Source: JADFSZ01 sp022560555 [NCBI: PVC group bacterium] (lineage in GTDB: Bacteria > GCA-001730085 > JADFSZ01). Taken from it: a DNA stretch of 7,837 bases. Shown here piece after piece: positions 5,304-7,802 of the stretch. The translations under genes and the position numbers were made by a program. Under the pieces are notes generated by a model. The model worked only from the letters and a program-made list of their open reading frames with translations, did not search any database and was not told the origin of the DNA. Positions within the stretch are counted from its first letter, which is position 1. Each line of letters starts with the position of its first letter. Location of the stretch: assembly GCA_022560555.1 (NCBI GenBank), contig JADFSZ010000080.1, positions 1 to 7,837 of the forward strand. Direction: 5' to 3'.

Positions 5304-5387
5304 GATGTTCCTAAAAAAAGGATTTTCCTTAAAAAAGGATTTTCCTTAAAAAAGAGTTTTCCTTAAAAAAGGATTTTCCTTAAAAAA
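5303..5387. repeat. 17-nt tandem repeat, four copies plus a degenerate fifth
   Basis: The plus-strand unit GGATTTTCCTTAAAAAA occurs at 5320-5336, 5337-5353, 5354-5370 (variant beginning GAGTTTT) and 5371-5387. A degenerate fifth copy at 5303-5319 matches at 14 of 17 positions and includes the recG ribosome binding site and the first base of its start codon. Each unit junction holds small inverted repeats (AAGGA-TTT-TCCTT, or TCCTT-AAAA-AAGGA), so the transcript could form alternative short hairpins. Read on the minus strand each unit has a Shine-Dalgarno-like AAGGA. The A6 run of the rightmost copy lies immediately upstream of the rpmB -35 element and could act as an UP-like element. Confidence 0.93.
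5308..5312 (-). promoter_or_regulatory. recG ribosome binding site (AGGAA)
   Basis: AGGAA on the minus strand lies 4 nt upstream of the recG ATG (AGGAA-CATC-ATG). It falls at the position occupied by AAGGAA in each tandem-repeat unit further upstream, so the repeat appears to be a reiterated version of this site. Confidence 0.6.
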
Positions 5388-5389
5388 GG

Positions 5390-5528: not shown

Positions 5529-5735
5529 ATGTCAAAGTTTTGTGAAATATGCCATAAAGGCCCGCATGCAGGCAATAGTGTGAGTCACGCAAAAAACGCC
5601 ACAAAACGTCGATTCCTGCCCAATCTTCAGCGCGTCAAAGCGATAACCAAAGGAACCATCCGCTATATTCGTGTGTGCACAAAATGCATAAAAGCCGGTA
5701 AAGTCGAAAAACCCCTCAAGCGCTCCCTCGTCTGA
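5529..5735 (+). CDS. rpmB: 50S ribosomal protein L28 (zinc-ribbon, C+ form)
   Basis: The 68-residue basic protein is a component of the large ribosomal subunit. It begins [21 protein letters not shown], in which the GP..GN.VSH signature typical of L28 is visible, followed by RRFLPNLQ and the C-terminal VCTKC. Two CxxC pairs (Cys5/Cys8 and Cys50/Cys53) mark the zinc-binding C+ form rather than the cysteine-free paralogue that replaces it under zinc limitation in some bacteria. The length is normal for the family. It is the only plus-strand gene here, divergent from recG and convergent with the PEP-CTERM gene. A minus-strand open frame overlapping it is a shadow. Confidence 0.96.
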
Positions 5736-5860
5736 TTCTCTCAAGACGCTACTAGTATACACTGTATTATATACTCTCCTTAAGAAAAGCACCGCAGGGC
5801 CCCTTATCAAACTGTCAATATTCCACAAAAAAAGAATGGGCGGGGTTTTTGTATTCGTTG
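5736..5860. other. Non-coding spacer after rpmB
   Basis: No gene is apparent. An AT-rich inverted repeat AGTATA (5754-5759)/TATACT (5770-5775) with a 10-nt loop lies soon after the stop codon. A G-rich stretch GGGCGGGG followed by TTTTT (5838-5850) looks like the 3' half of a terminator but has no adequate complementary arm upstream. rpmB transcripts may therefore end at the strong hairpin at 5873-5908, which is nearly symmetrical. Confidence 0.4.
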
Positions 5861-5908
5861 GAACAAATAAAAAAGCGCGGACAAAGATAAAAATCTTCGT
5901 CCGCGCTT
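5861..5908 (-). terminator. Strong intrinsic terminator of the PEP-CTERM gene (possibly bidirectional)
   Basis: AAGCGCGGAC (5873-5882) pairs perfectly with GTCCGCGCTT (5899-5908). After one A-C mismatch the stem continues AAGAT/ATCTT around an AAAA loop, giving 15 pairs. On the minus strand the GC-rich stem is followed by TTTTTTATTTGTT, a proper U-tract, 66 nt past the stop codon of the PEP-CTERM gene. On the plus strand the tail is only TTAATTGTTTAA, so termination of convergent rpmB transcripts there would be weaker. Confidence 0.92.
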
Positions 5909-5924
5909 AATTGTTTAACTGAAA

Positions 5925-5946
5925 AACTGTTTTATTAAAAACAGTT
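5925..5946. repeat. AT-rich perfect hairpin in the PEP-CTERM 3' UTR
   Basis: AACTGTTTT (5925-5933) and AAAACAGTT (5938-5946) form a perfect 9-bp stem around ATTA. An extra TTAACTG at 5915-5921 can instead pair with CAGTTAA (5942-5948), so two alternative folds exist. It sits between the PEP-CTERM stop codon and the GC-rich terminator and may be an mRNA 3'-stabilising element or a remnant terminator. Confidence 0.45.
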
Positions 5947-5973
5947 AATCGATTTTACTTCCATACATCTCAA

Positions 5974-6771
5974 TTACAGAGATTTTCTCTTTTTCAAGAA
6001 ACCAACCAGACCTGCGCCCAAAAGCACAAGACTCGCCGGTTCAGGAACGGGTGCTGTTCCTGTCAAAGGATCTTGACTAGTGAAATCCCATATATCACCG
6101 CCATCTATAAAAATACTCGACGTTAATCCAAACTGAGCCCCTGTGATAGGGTTCGTGAACCAGTCGATACCGGTATTATTCGTAGTGAACACGAAAGTGG
6201 CCGCTGCGGTAATATCGCTGTTCGGACCTGTACCATCGGCTCCAAGCGGATTCGTACCCGAAATTGGATCCTTTACTGTCGTTTCATAGAACAGTGATTC
6301 AAGTTCGGCCAAAAGTGTAGCACCGACGTTACCGTCACCAAATGATGCCTCCGCAGCCGCAAGCGATGAATTGTCGATATCGCTTGTATCCAACCACATG
6401 TCCAACACGGCATCCCAAGAGGCAACTCCACCTCCCACAACACTATCCAACGTTAACGTGAATTCACCATCGATAAATTCACCGGTAGAGAATCCTGATA
6501 CCCACCAACTTGTATCAAGGGCTCCAGTAATAACCACAACACCGCCGATAATTTCGGCAGGCGCTCTTTGAATCGTGGTCACCTTATAGAAACCTTTGAT
6601 TTCATCAGGAACTCCGGATGTAAACCCAGTTTGATCAGGGATGTATTCCCAGTTAGTGTACTTGAAAAAGTACTGATAGCCTTGTTCAAGCTGAAACGAA
6701 ACAGCGTGAGCTGTTCCTGCTACAGACAGAACACAGATAGCTAACAAAATAGCAAATAAGTTTTTTTTCAT
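5974..6771 (-). CDS. PEP-CTERM sorting domain protein, function unknown
   Basis: The 265-residue exported protein has a clear Sec signal peptide (residues 1-23, KK then a hydrophobic core, AHA cleavage site). It ends in a PEP-CTERM sorting signal: VPEPA (242-246), a hydrophobic helix LVLLGAGLVGFL and basic KKRK (260-263). Proteins with this tail are recognised by exosortase (EpsH/XrtA-type), and such systems are linked to exopolysaccharide or biofilm matrix. The mature region is acidic, poor in lysine and cysteine-free, with Gly/Asp/Thr-rich beta-type sequence and three D/N-P-[IL]-[ST]-G-[TA] motifs (168-173, 207-212, 234-239). No enzymatic motif is recognised. The start at 6771 is chosen over an upstream ATG at 6855 because it has a strong AGGAGGT 6 nt upstream and begins the signal peptide directly. 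A sigma-54 promoter motif lies between the two candidate starts. No exosortase gene is in the window. Confidence 0.93.
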   Translation of the reverse strand: MKKNLFAILLAICVLSVAGTAHAVSFQLEQGYQYFFKYTNWEYIPDQTGFTSGVPDEIKGFYKVTTIQRAPAEIIGGVVVITGALDTSWWVSGFSTGEFIDGEFTLTLDSVVGGGVASWDAVLDMWLDTSDIDNSSLAAAEASFGDGNVGATLLAELESLFYETTVKDPISGTNPLGADGTGPNSDITAAATFVFTTNNTGIDWFTNPITGAQFGLTSSIFIDGGDIWDFTSQDPLTGTAPVPEPASLVLLGAGLVGFLKKRKSL

Positions 6772-6777
6772 TGTTAC

Positions 6778-6784
6778 ACCTCCT
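6778..6784 (-). promoter_or_regulatory. Strong Shine-Dalgarno of the PEP-CTERM gene
   Basis: AGGAGGT on the minus strand is perfectly complementary to the 16S rRNA 3' end and lies 6 nt upstream of the ATG at 6771. It decides that start against the upstream in-frame ATG at 6855 and suggests high translation. Confidence 0.9.
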
Positions 6785-6827
6785 TTCCCTATAATCTCGT
6801 TTTTTCTTATCATTTGGGAGATGGAAG

Positions 6828-6843
6828 AGCAATCGTGATGCCA
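6828..6843 (-). promoter_or_regulatory. Sigma-54 (RpoN) -24/-12 promoter for the PEP-CTERM gene
   Basis: The minus strand reads TTGGCATCACGATTGCT, matching the YTGGCACG-N4-TTGCW consensus. The invariant GG (6842-6841) and GC (6830-6829) are exactly 12 nt apart. Transcription would start near 6817, giving a leader of about 45 nt that contains the strong Shine-Dalgarno at 6778-6784. The promoter needs an AAA+ activator. PEP-CTERM systems are commonly accompanied by the PrsK/PrsR two-component pair, whose regulator is of the sigma-54-dependent class. Confidence 0.8.
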
Positions 6844-7136
6844 AAAACGACACAATTTGTAAACAGTTAATAAATATAAAGTTATGGATAATATGTTCCC
6901 CTTGCATTTCTACTAAAACTGCCTGCCTTTGTTGATTAGAGCAAACAGAACAATTACCTCTACGAAGATTCAGTTTTGTAATCGATGTAACTATTTTATT
7001 ATTAGTATTTTATGGAAAATACGGGACGGAATTTGTGAATGTTGAAGGAATACGACATGTTTGTCGATCTCAACGTATATATATAGACAAGATCTAAGTC
7101 AAATTAAGATAAGGCTATATGGGAACCAATCTCAAG
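6844..7136. other. AT-rich non-coding region upstream of the PEP-CTERM promoter
   Basis: About 290 nt contain no credible gene. It holds a TGTCG half-site on the minus strand (6848-6852), the inverted repeat CGACA-TGTT-TGTCG (7053-7066) and an alternating (TA)5 tract (7076-7085). No convincing intrinsic terminator for the HAD gene is visible between 7081 and 7136. The length and AT-richness are typical of the upstream control region of a sigma-54 promoter, where activator binding and DNA bending occur. Confidence 0.6.
7053..7066. promoter_or_regulatory. Inverted repeat CGACA-N4-TGTCG, candidate activator site
   Basis: A perfect 5-bp inverted repeat with a 4-nt centre lies about 235-245 nt upstream of the predicted sigma-54 transcription start. 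A lone TGTCG half-site recurs on the minus strand at 6852-6848, just upstream of the -24 element. Dyads at such distances are typical of enhancer sites for sigma-54 activators, but the assignment to a particular regulator is inference. Confidence 0.35.
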
Positions 7137-7802
7137 CTATGCTGGACGCGGGGGCCGTTTTTGAAGATCATGGATCAAGCTTTCTGCTTCAGGCAAAGTA
7201 TCTTTGATCCAATCCGCTTCCACAAGATAGCGCCCCGGAAGACTGGTCGTGAGCGCGATACAAGACAAGCCCGCCTGCTTCGCGGATCGGATTCCGTACG
7301 GGGCATTTTCAATAACAAGAATCTCACGAGCCGGCAAGTCTAAGGCTTTCACAGCTTTCTGATAAGGCTCCGGATGCGGCTTTCCAAAGGATACATCCGT
7401 TCCTGTAACGATAACGTGAAAATATTTCCGGAATGTTTTGGGAAGTAATTTTTCGACTTCCGGGCGGGACGTTCCTGTCACCAAGCCCAGCAACAGGCCT
7501 TTTTGAAAAAATCGGGTCACACAATTTTCGGCATGAGGAAAGAAATCCGCGGGGGAAAGGCCTTTAAATATTTTCTCTTTGGCGGACAAGAGTTTTCGGA
7601 TATTTTCAGGGCTTGAGGATTGATGATTTTTTTCTAATATTTCCTTTGCGGTAATTTGGCCTTGTTCTCCTTCGCGTTTATAAATATCCAGTTTAGAAAC
7701 AGTGATATTGTTTTGTCTGAACGCTTCCGCCCACGATTCAAAGTGAGACGGCATGCTGTCCATAATCACACCGTCCATATCTAAGATGACTCCACGAACC
7801 AT
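7137..7802 (-). CDS. HAD-superfamily hydrolase (subfamily IA; phosphatase or beta-phosphoglucomutase-like)
   Basis: The 221-residue cytoplasmic enzyme is likely to act on a phosphorylated sugar or other small metabolite. HAD motif I is DMDGVIMDS (8-16) with nucleophile Asp8 and acid/base Asp10. Motif II is VTGTS (108-112, Thr109), motif III the lysine of GKPHPEPY (Lys141), and motif IV is VIENAPYGI (163-171). Motif IV has Glu-Asn (165-166) rather than the commoner Glu-Asp or Asp-Asp. The region between motifs I and II is a helical C1 cap (about 17-85) containing the REGE segment and His20 seen in beta-phosphoglucomutase-like proteins. The exact substrate cannot be read from sequence. The ATG at 7802 fits the family start; the only purine-rich site, GGAG (7818-7815), is rather far upstream, and the frame stays open to the window edge, so a start further out is not excluded. 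Confidence 0.88.
   Translation of the reverse strand: MVRGVILDMDGVIMDSMPSHFESWAEAFRQNNITVSKLDIYKREGEQGQITAKEILEKNHQSSSPENIRKLLSAKEKIFKGLSPADFFPHAENCVTRFFQKGLLLGLVTGTSRPEVEKLLPKTFRKYFHVIVTGTDVSFGKPHPEPYQKAVKALDLPAREILVIENAPYGIRSAKQAGLSCIALTTSLPGRYLVEADWIKDTLPEAESLIHDLQKRPPRPA

Follow-up and report, generated by a model that had tools for sequence, protein, structure and literature searches.

A probable sigma-54 promoter upstream of a solitary PEP-CTERM gene, and the candidate surface-protein regulon to which it may belong

The PEP-CTERM gene and its upstream element

The window, by which we mean the whole analysed stretch of 7,837 nucleotides, constitutes an entire contig (C49) of a genome of 1.658 Mb in 222 contigs that is 91.5% complete. 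It includes, on the minus strand, a gene coding for a 265-residue protein with a C-terminal sorting tag, along with the following associated features:

5974..6771, minus strand: gene for a PEP-CTERM protein of 265 aa, with signal peptide, Thr/Gly-rich domain and C-terminal PEP-CTERM tag
5983..6051, minus strand: PEP-CTERM sorting signal PVPEPASLVLLGAGLVGFLKKRK (PF07589, 31.8 bits, E 4e-7 in the genome search)
5873..5908, minus strand: intrinsic-terminator-like hairpin of 16 pairs, after the PEP-CTERM gene
6779..6783, minus strand: Shine-Dalgarno sequence GGAGG, supporting the ATG 57 nt after the promoter site
6829..6843, minus strand: predicted sigma-54 (-24/-12) promoter core TGGCATCACGATTGC, exact in core and spacing, with an implied +1 at about 6817
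6844..7136, no strand assigned: intergenic region, the expected place of an activator site

The N-terminus of the protein, MKKNLFAILLAICVLSVAGTAHA, is signal-peptide-like both by eye and by hydrophobicity, and its Thr/Gly-rich domain is reflected in an overall content of 28 T and 30 G. It is recovered by both models of the sorting tag (PF07589, 27.4 bits against a cut-off of 20.7; TIGR02595, 23.7 bits against a cut-off of 16), and scores below the cut-off of the PepA flocculation protein model (NF033554, 24.9 against 80 bits). A single-sequence structure model was uninformative (pLDDT 35). Searches for relatives that could serve footprinting of the promoter gave 25 pattern matches in genome contigs, none of which was confirmed, and none in plasmids, the order being represented by this genome only.

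Examination of the DNA upstream of this gene revealed TGGCATCACGATTGC on the minus strand at 6843..6829. As the preliminary description had claimed, it matches TGGCAN6TTGC, with the GG at 6842/6841 and the GC at 6830/6829, i.e. at -24/-12 with an offset of 12 nt. From the C of the promoter (6829) to the ATG (6771) we measure 57 nt rather than the 56 nt given there, while the Shine-Dalgarno support for this start (GGAGG, 6783..6779) stands; likewise, recomputing the implied +1 from the position of the site again places the predicted transcription start near 6817. The upstream neighbor on the same strand, a HAD gene, ends at 7137 and leaves 365 nt before the PEP-CTERM gene, a solitary gene followed by the 16-pair hairpin. 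Between the two genes there is a terminator-like stem of only 5 pairs. A scan of both strands from 5730 to 7140 detected one weak sigma-70-like match (minus strand, 9/12, 7135..7106) as against a mean of 3.5 in shuffled sequences, so that a housekeeping promoter is not evident, again as first described. Elsewhere in the window we observed five tandem copies of the 17-nt unit GATTTTCCTTAAAAAAG between recG and rpmB (5304-5389), and a tRNA-Arg (CCG) on the minus strand near the contig end (46-120).

Distribution of the site and the genes it precedes

Genome-wide, TGGCAN6TTGC occurs at 25 exact sites as against 5 for a reversed control pattern; at the density of the control, simple arithmetic leads one to expect a site in a given 250-nt, one-strand upstream stretch in about 4 of 10,000 cases. 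When genes are delimited by longest-ORF starts, 11 of the 25 sites are intergenic (p 4.5e-5) and the window site falls inside a frame; with Shine-Dalgarno-aware starts the number rises to 14, 17 and 18 at gene cut-offs of 90, 130 and 160 aa respectively (p 5.8e-6, 1.3e-7 and 1.6e-7), the coding fraction behind all these p values having been drawn from 231 kb of stretches picked for sites, activators or related genes. Classification by hand yielded 18 intergenic and 7 in-gene sites. All 18 of the former read TGGCAT or TGGCAC, and 5 of the 7 latter read TGGCAA or TGGCAG. Measured from the site, the distance to the first start with Shine-Dalgarno support is 48-62 nt for 10 of the 18 promoters, the window promoter with its 57 nt among them; three of these ten starts belong to short ORFs (two, on C59) or to an ORF at a contig end (one, on C126); for two of the 18, no such start was found after the site.

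A leave-one-out matrix derived from the 18 intergenic sites ranks the window site lowest, at 12.4 (range 12.4-23.6), because it has a T after the TTGC, where 16 of the 18 have G or A. A score of 12.4 is reached at 27 places in the 231 kb, 17 of which are training sites, as against a mean of 6.75 (1-10) in 12 runs of simulated sequence, so the flanks of the window site add no support. The case for the window promoter is carried instead by its exact core, position, orientation and distance, and on these properties TGGCATCACGATTGC is probably a real sigma-54 promoter.

The intergenic sites lie upstream of about 18 transcription units, and by eye or by model at least 7 of the 18, including the window gene, code for surface or secreted proteins. 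On contig C170 they precede two type IV prepilins (one recognized by a model and one by its GFTLVEIMIVVAIIG start) and a unit coding for a PilZ protein followed by a sugar transferase. Further sites precede genes for a porin (C200, by Pfam), a secreted protein that matches no Pfam family (C59), an Hsp20 protein (C58), two look-alike small secreted proteins (C106 and C191) and a response regulator (C55); two near-identical gene starts (C70 and C126) and several genes with no assigned product make up the remainder. Activator genes, or the tails of such genes, are present on five promoter-bearing contigs (C55, C59, C106, C170 and C200). The PEP-CTERM gene is thus probably part of a small sigma-54 regulon rich in surface proteins, as predicted from these gene contexts, and since its site fits in with a set of about 18 sigma-54 promoters, the preliminary description of it as a remote regulon member is the one to prefer. 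As a separate observation, the near-identical promoters of C126 (L034) and C70 (L035), with gene starts MARSSI.., lie at contig ends, and this near-identity is perhaps a duplication or an assembly effect.

Two PEP-CTERM genes in the genome score above the Pfam cut-off, and the site is found only before the window gene. The second, on C20, comes by eye after a thioredoxin-like gene, and no site upstream of it figures among the 60 best matrix matches. A third match, found on C170, is weak (16.8 bits, below the cut-off) and falls on the beginning of the sugar transferase encoded after the PilZ promoter. The first residues of this transferase (locus L029, C170:9057-9791, minus strand), MPEPSSIILISSGLGGILIRYVR, resemble a PEP-CTERM tag placed N-terminally; its catalytic part scores 231.9 bits with the model of XrtA-system glycosyltransferases (TIGR03013, cut-off 393.35), and of its 1004 plasmid matches, the 12 best align from residue 20 onward at the earliest and so leave the tag uncovered.

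We extended the comparison to other genomes. In one other genome of the phylum, exact sites show little excess over the reversed control (13 versus 8), and models for rpoN, exosortase and PEP-CTERM, the last representing the family rather than the 265-residue protein, all lacked a match. A sample of 23 genomes, picked from 80 loci by RecG similarity, included five with PEP-CTERM genes (25 genes, 23 of them readable); none of the 23 readable genes has an exact site within 250 nt, the sample having been assembled independently of rpoN status, and looser sites accompany three PEP-CTERM genes. In a RecG tree of 32 rows (the window and 31 of the 80 loci), the window branches from an unresolved node together with UBP18, Omnitrophota and other lineages.

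RpoN, exosortase and the candidate activators

A sigma-54 promoter calls for RpoN, for which the preliminary description had recommended a search, and this is encoded on C155 (E 8.8e-58). The exosortase was expected to be encoded away from the window, and we indeed detected a single one in the genome, on C170 (PF09721, 209.8 bits against a cut-off of 25.7; TIGR02602, 156.8 against 105.55). It displays the motifs CSGLR, NVARI and FHDFSG and retains Cys184, Arg229 and His250, which we take to be the catalytic positions. Exosortase A (TIGR03109) is its best-scoring exosortase type, at 180.1 bits below the cut-off of 208; a PDB search returned one match of no use (E 0.074). In composition, C49, C170 and C155 agree with an origin in one genome, with no sign of foreign DNA.

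In addition to the exosortase, contig C170 carries three genes in tandem, whose products are a histidine kinase, a sigma-54 activator of NtrC type and a TPR protein. The last of these exceeds the cut-off of the PrsT model (TIGR02917, 400.8 against 312.2 bits), an assignment that is weakly specific because MamA, PilW and other TPR models also pass their cut-offs. The genome contains 12 matches to PF00158, of which 9 are strong activators, and all nine fall below the cut-off of the PrsR model (TIGR02915, 328-414 against 502.6 bits), a model that gives 585 bits with the regulator of a Desulfovibrio exosortase plasmid used as positive control. The C170 activator scores highest (414), followed by those on C209 (399.9) and C55 (391.4), with the other six lower; BLAST against the Desulfovibrio regulator again puts C170 first, by a small margin (294 bits for C170, 286 for C55 and 283 for C209). 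When their alignment is inspected by eye, the C-termini of the C170 and Desulfovibrio regulators differ where the DNA-reading helix is expected. The best of 14 matches to the PrsK model (TIGR02916), on C170, reaches 90.2 bits against a cut-off of 300, 13 of 14 control genomes also falling below it; the N-terminus of this kinase contains a receiver-like stretch. Membership in a Prs regulon, which the preliminary description had favored, therefore holds in outline (RpoN, the exosortase and a kinase, regulator and PrsT-type protein on C170) and is not supported as regards a true PrsK/PrsR pair (90 versus 300 and 414 versus 502.6). By model score the C170 regulator is not a member of the PrsR family, of which it could be a functional counterpart.

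Two other activators deserve separate mention. The C200 activator passes the NifA model (548 bits). On C209 (L049, 1078-2331, plus strand) the activator frame stops at 418 aa, with a C-terminus that finds no counterpart in the DNA-reading end of the other activators, possibly because of a frameshift or because the DNA-reading part is missing.

To obtain a candidate activator site we scanned the Desulfovibrio plasmid locus for TGTCGG-type 17-18-mers ending in ACA and recovered nine places, seven of which read TGTCGGAN7ACA. Among the nine are places upstream of the PilZ gene, of two PEP-CTERM genes out of three annotated there and, at a distance of about 300 nt, of a TPR gene; one of the nine falls within a gene, and only one is followed by a TGG-N8-TTGC site in the next ~120 nt. 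TGTCGGAN7ACA agrees with motif 1 of Haft 2006, which is 17 nt long, and we presume that it is the PrsR box. Over 250 nt upstream of the window site, its best match on either strand has 9 of 13 fixed positions, so the box is absent there; two other promoters of the set reach 10 of 13. Motif 1 as described in Haft 2006 (17 nt ending in TTTACA, 32-92 nt before motif 2) was likewise not found at the window site, the one occurrence of TTTACA within 220 nt upstream ending just 14 nt short of it. A dyad box, TGTAAAN5TTTACA, suggested by the pilin promoter, was rejected: with up to 2 mismatches it occurs 105 times as against 182 for the control, counted per strand, since the box is its own complement.

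Pairwise comparison of upstream DNA, with C70 left out because its upstream stretch is too short, covered 17 promoters and hence 136 pairs. The promoters of the PilZ unit and pilA on C170 have 45 nt in common, a likeness equalled by none of 200 shuffles, and the window offers one related feature:

6857..6892, no strand assigned: AT-rich stretch of 36 nt, like the upstream region of the C170 PilZ/sugar-transferase promoter, reversed (2 of 400 dinucleotide shuffles as good; 136 pairs compared)

This stretch is a possible activator or bending site, and we regard it as a candidate lead. The likeness of the window promoter to the upstream DNA of C170 pilA is at the level of chance (123 of 200 shuffles as good). 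Independently of the window, C59 (L032) and C200 (L041) each have a promoter immediately after the end of an activator gene, the two gene ends being near-identical. Upstream of both promoters there is a common stretch that ends in ACAAAAATGTAATTT and is equalled by 3 of 200 shuffles; it is a candidate activator box. None of the activators can be tied to the window promoter.

A proposed regulatory scheme and its relation to known systems

Taken together, these observations make it rather likely that the element is a working sigma-54 promoter, a judgment that concerns the promoter and not the choice of its activator. Going by the established biology of sigma-54, RNA polymerase with RpoN would wait at this promoter in a closed complex until an upstream-bound activator of the NtrC family, once its signal has turned it on, remodels the complex. 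As the closed complex needs the activator, the PEP-CTERM gene would be silent when the signal is lacking. The 265-residue protein would be exported via Sec and held by its PEP-CTERM tag, whereupon the C170 exosortase would cleave it and pass the product to the surface or to exopolysaccharide. The best single candidate for the activator is the NtrC-type regulator on the exosortase contig, to which we would assign somewhat less than an even chance.

The promoter could equally be served by one of the remaining eight activators, without a link to the exosortase locus, a reading whose probability we again place a little short of one half. The genome has nine strong activators to choose from, and the occurrence of an activator gene or tail on five promoter contigs suggests local pairings, whereas the window contains no activator gene. 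A 19-nt stretch beside the window site recurs at the C146 promoter, a likeness that none of 200 shuffles equals, yet this is one of 136 pairs and its score of 14.6 barely exceeds that of the best shuffle, 14.4. It is unlikely that the element is a chance match, with the gene read from an unrecognized housekeeping promoter or by read-through from the HAD gene: the rank of the site as the lowest of 18, with a matrix score no better than background, would agree with this, as would the 5-pair stem and the weak sigma-70 match at 7135..7106, but the exact core, orientation, 57-nt distance and solitary layout fit a promoter, and one upstream region would hold a site by chance in only about 4 of 10,000 cases. 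An orthodox Prs regulon, in which a true PrsK/PrsR pair acts via a PrsR box, is improbable, for despite the PrsT-type protein above its cut-off, the TIGR03013-like transferase and the tandem kinase and regulator on C170, as in Haft 2006 (PMC1569441), and the roughly 8% of the genome that is missing, all nine activators score below the PrsR cut-off that the control passes at 585 bits, PrsK stands at 90 versus 300, and the presumed PrsR box is absent upstream of the window site.

The favored reading thus remains that of a sigma-54 promoter within a surface-protein regulon. More tentatively, and at rather less than even probability, this non-Proteobacterial lineage might have placed its PEP-CTERM/exosortase system under sigma-54 with a non-PrsR activator and another DNA box, as part of one surface programme with the prepilins, PilZ and the sugar transferase. 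If true, sigma-54 control of exosortase substrates arose more than once. The presence of this promoter logic in the absence of a recognizable PrsR or PrsR box suggests that the conserved feature is the tight, signal-dependent control of these substrates and not a particular regulator. The lineage is distant and poorly sampled, two genomes of its phylum having been examined, and the analysis provides a testable set of about 18 promoters and 9 activators. No description of the same arrangement in this or a related lineage was found in searches of open-licence papers.

Sigma-54 control of PEP-CTERM genes has itself been in print since 2006, and the account of the cis-element given there reports it in Proteobacteria only and ties it to PrsK, PrsR and PrsT (PMC1569441). 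Such wiring is therefore known from other bacteria; here the usual regulator and its box were not found. Like the window site, the Haft 2006 element places a -24/-12 motif before PEP-CTERM genes that stand as single-gene units and have long intergenic DNA, and the distance from its motif 2 to the start averages 71 nt (SD 38.5; PMC1569441) as against 57 nt for the window gene; unlike it, the window site is not preceded by motif 1 at the reported spacing. A second parallel is pepA of Aquincola tertiaricarbonis, a PEP-CTERM gene with RpoN1-dependent transcription whose start, in the account of that locus, was mapped downstream of TGGCAC/CTGCTT (PMC9850573); in contrast, the window protein fails the PepA model (24.9 versus 80 bits) and prsT is not adjacent. 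The view of sigma-54 as a controller of the bacterial exterior, with a regulon rich in surface and secreted proteins, likewise resembles the gene set described here, but the main text of that paper contains no occurrence of PEP-CTERM, exosortase or pilin (PMC3162934). In Desulfovibrio vulgaris, DVUA0057, the response regulator of an exopolysaccharide locus, is reported to have bound five predicted PEP-CTERM targets in DAP-chip (PMC3333781). We infer that the regulator of the Desulfovibrio plasmid corresponds to DVUA0057 and that TGTCGGAN7ACA is its site. Strain RCH1 has a related plasmid, on which PEP-CTERM genes have a PilZ gene in their vicinity; the plasmid regulator passes the PrsR model (585 bits) and its locus carries TGTCGGAN7ACA boxes, neither of which holds for the system described here.
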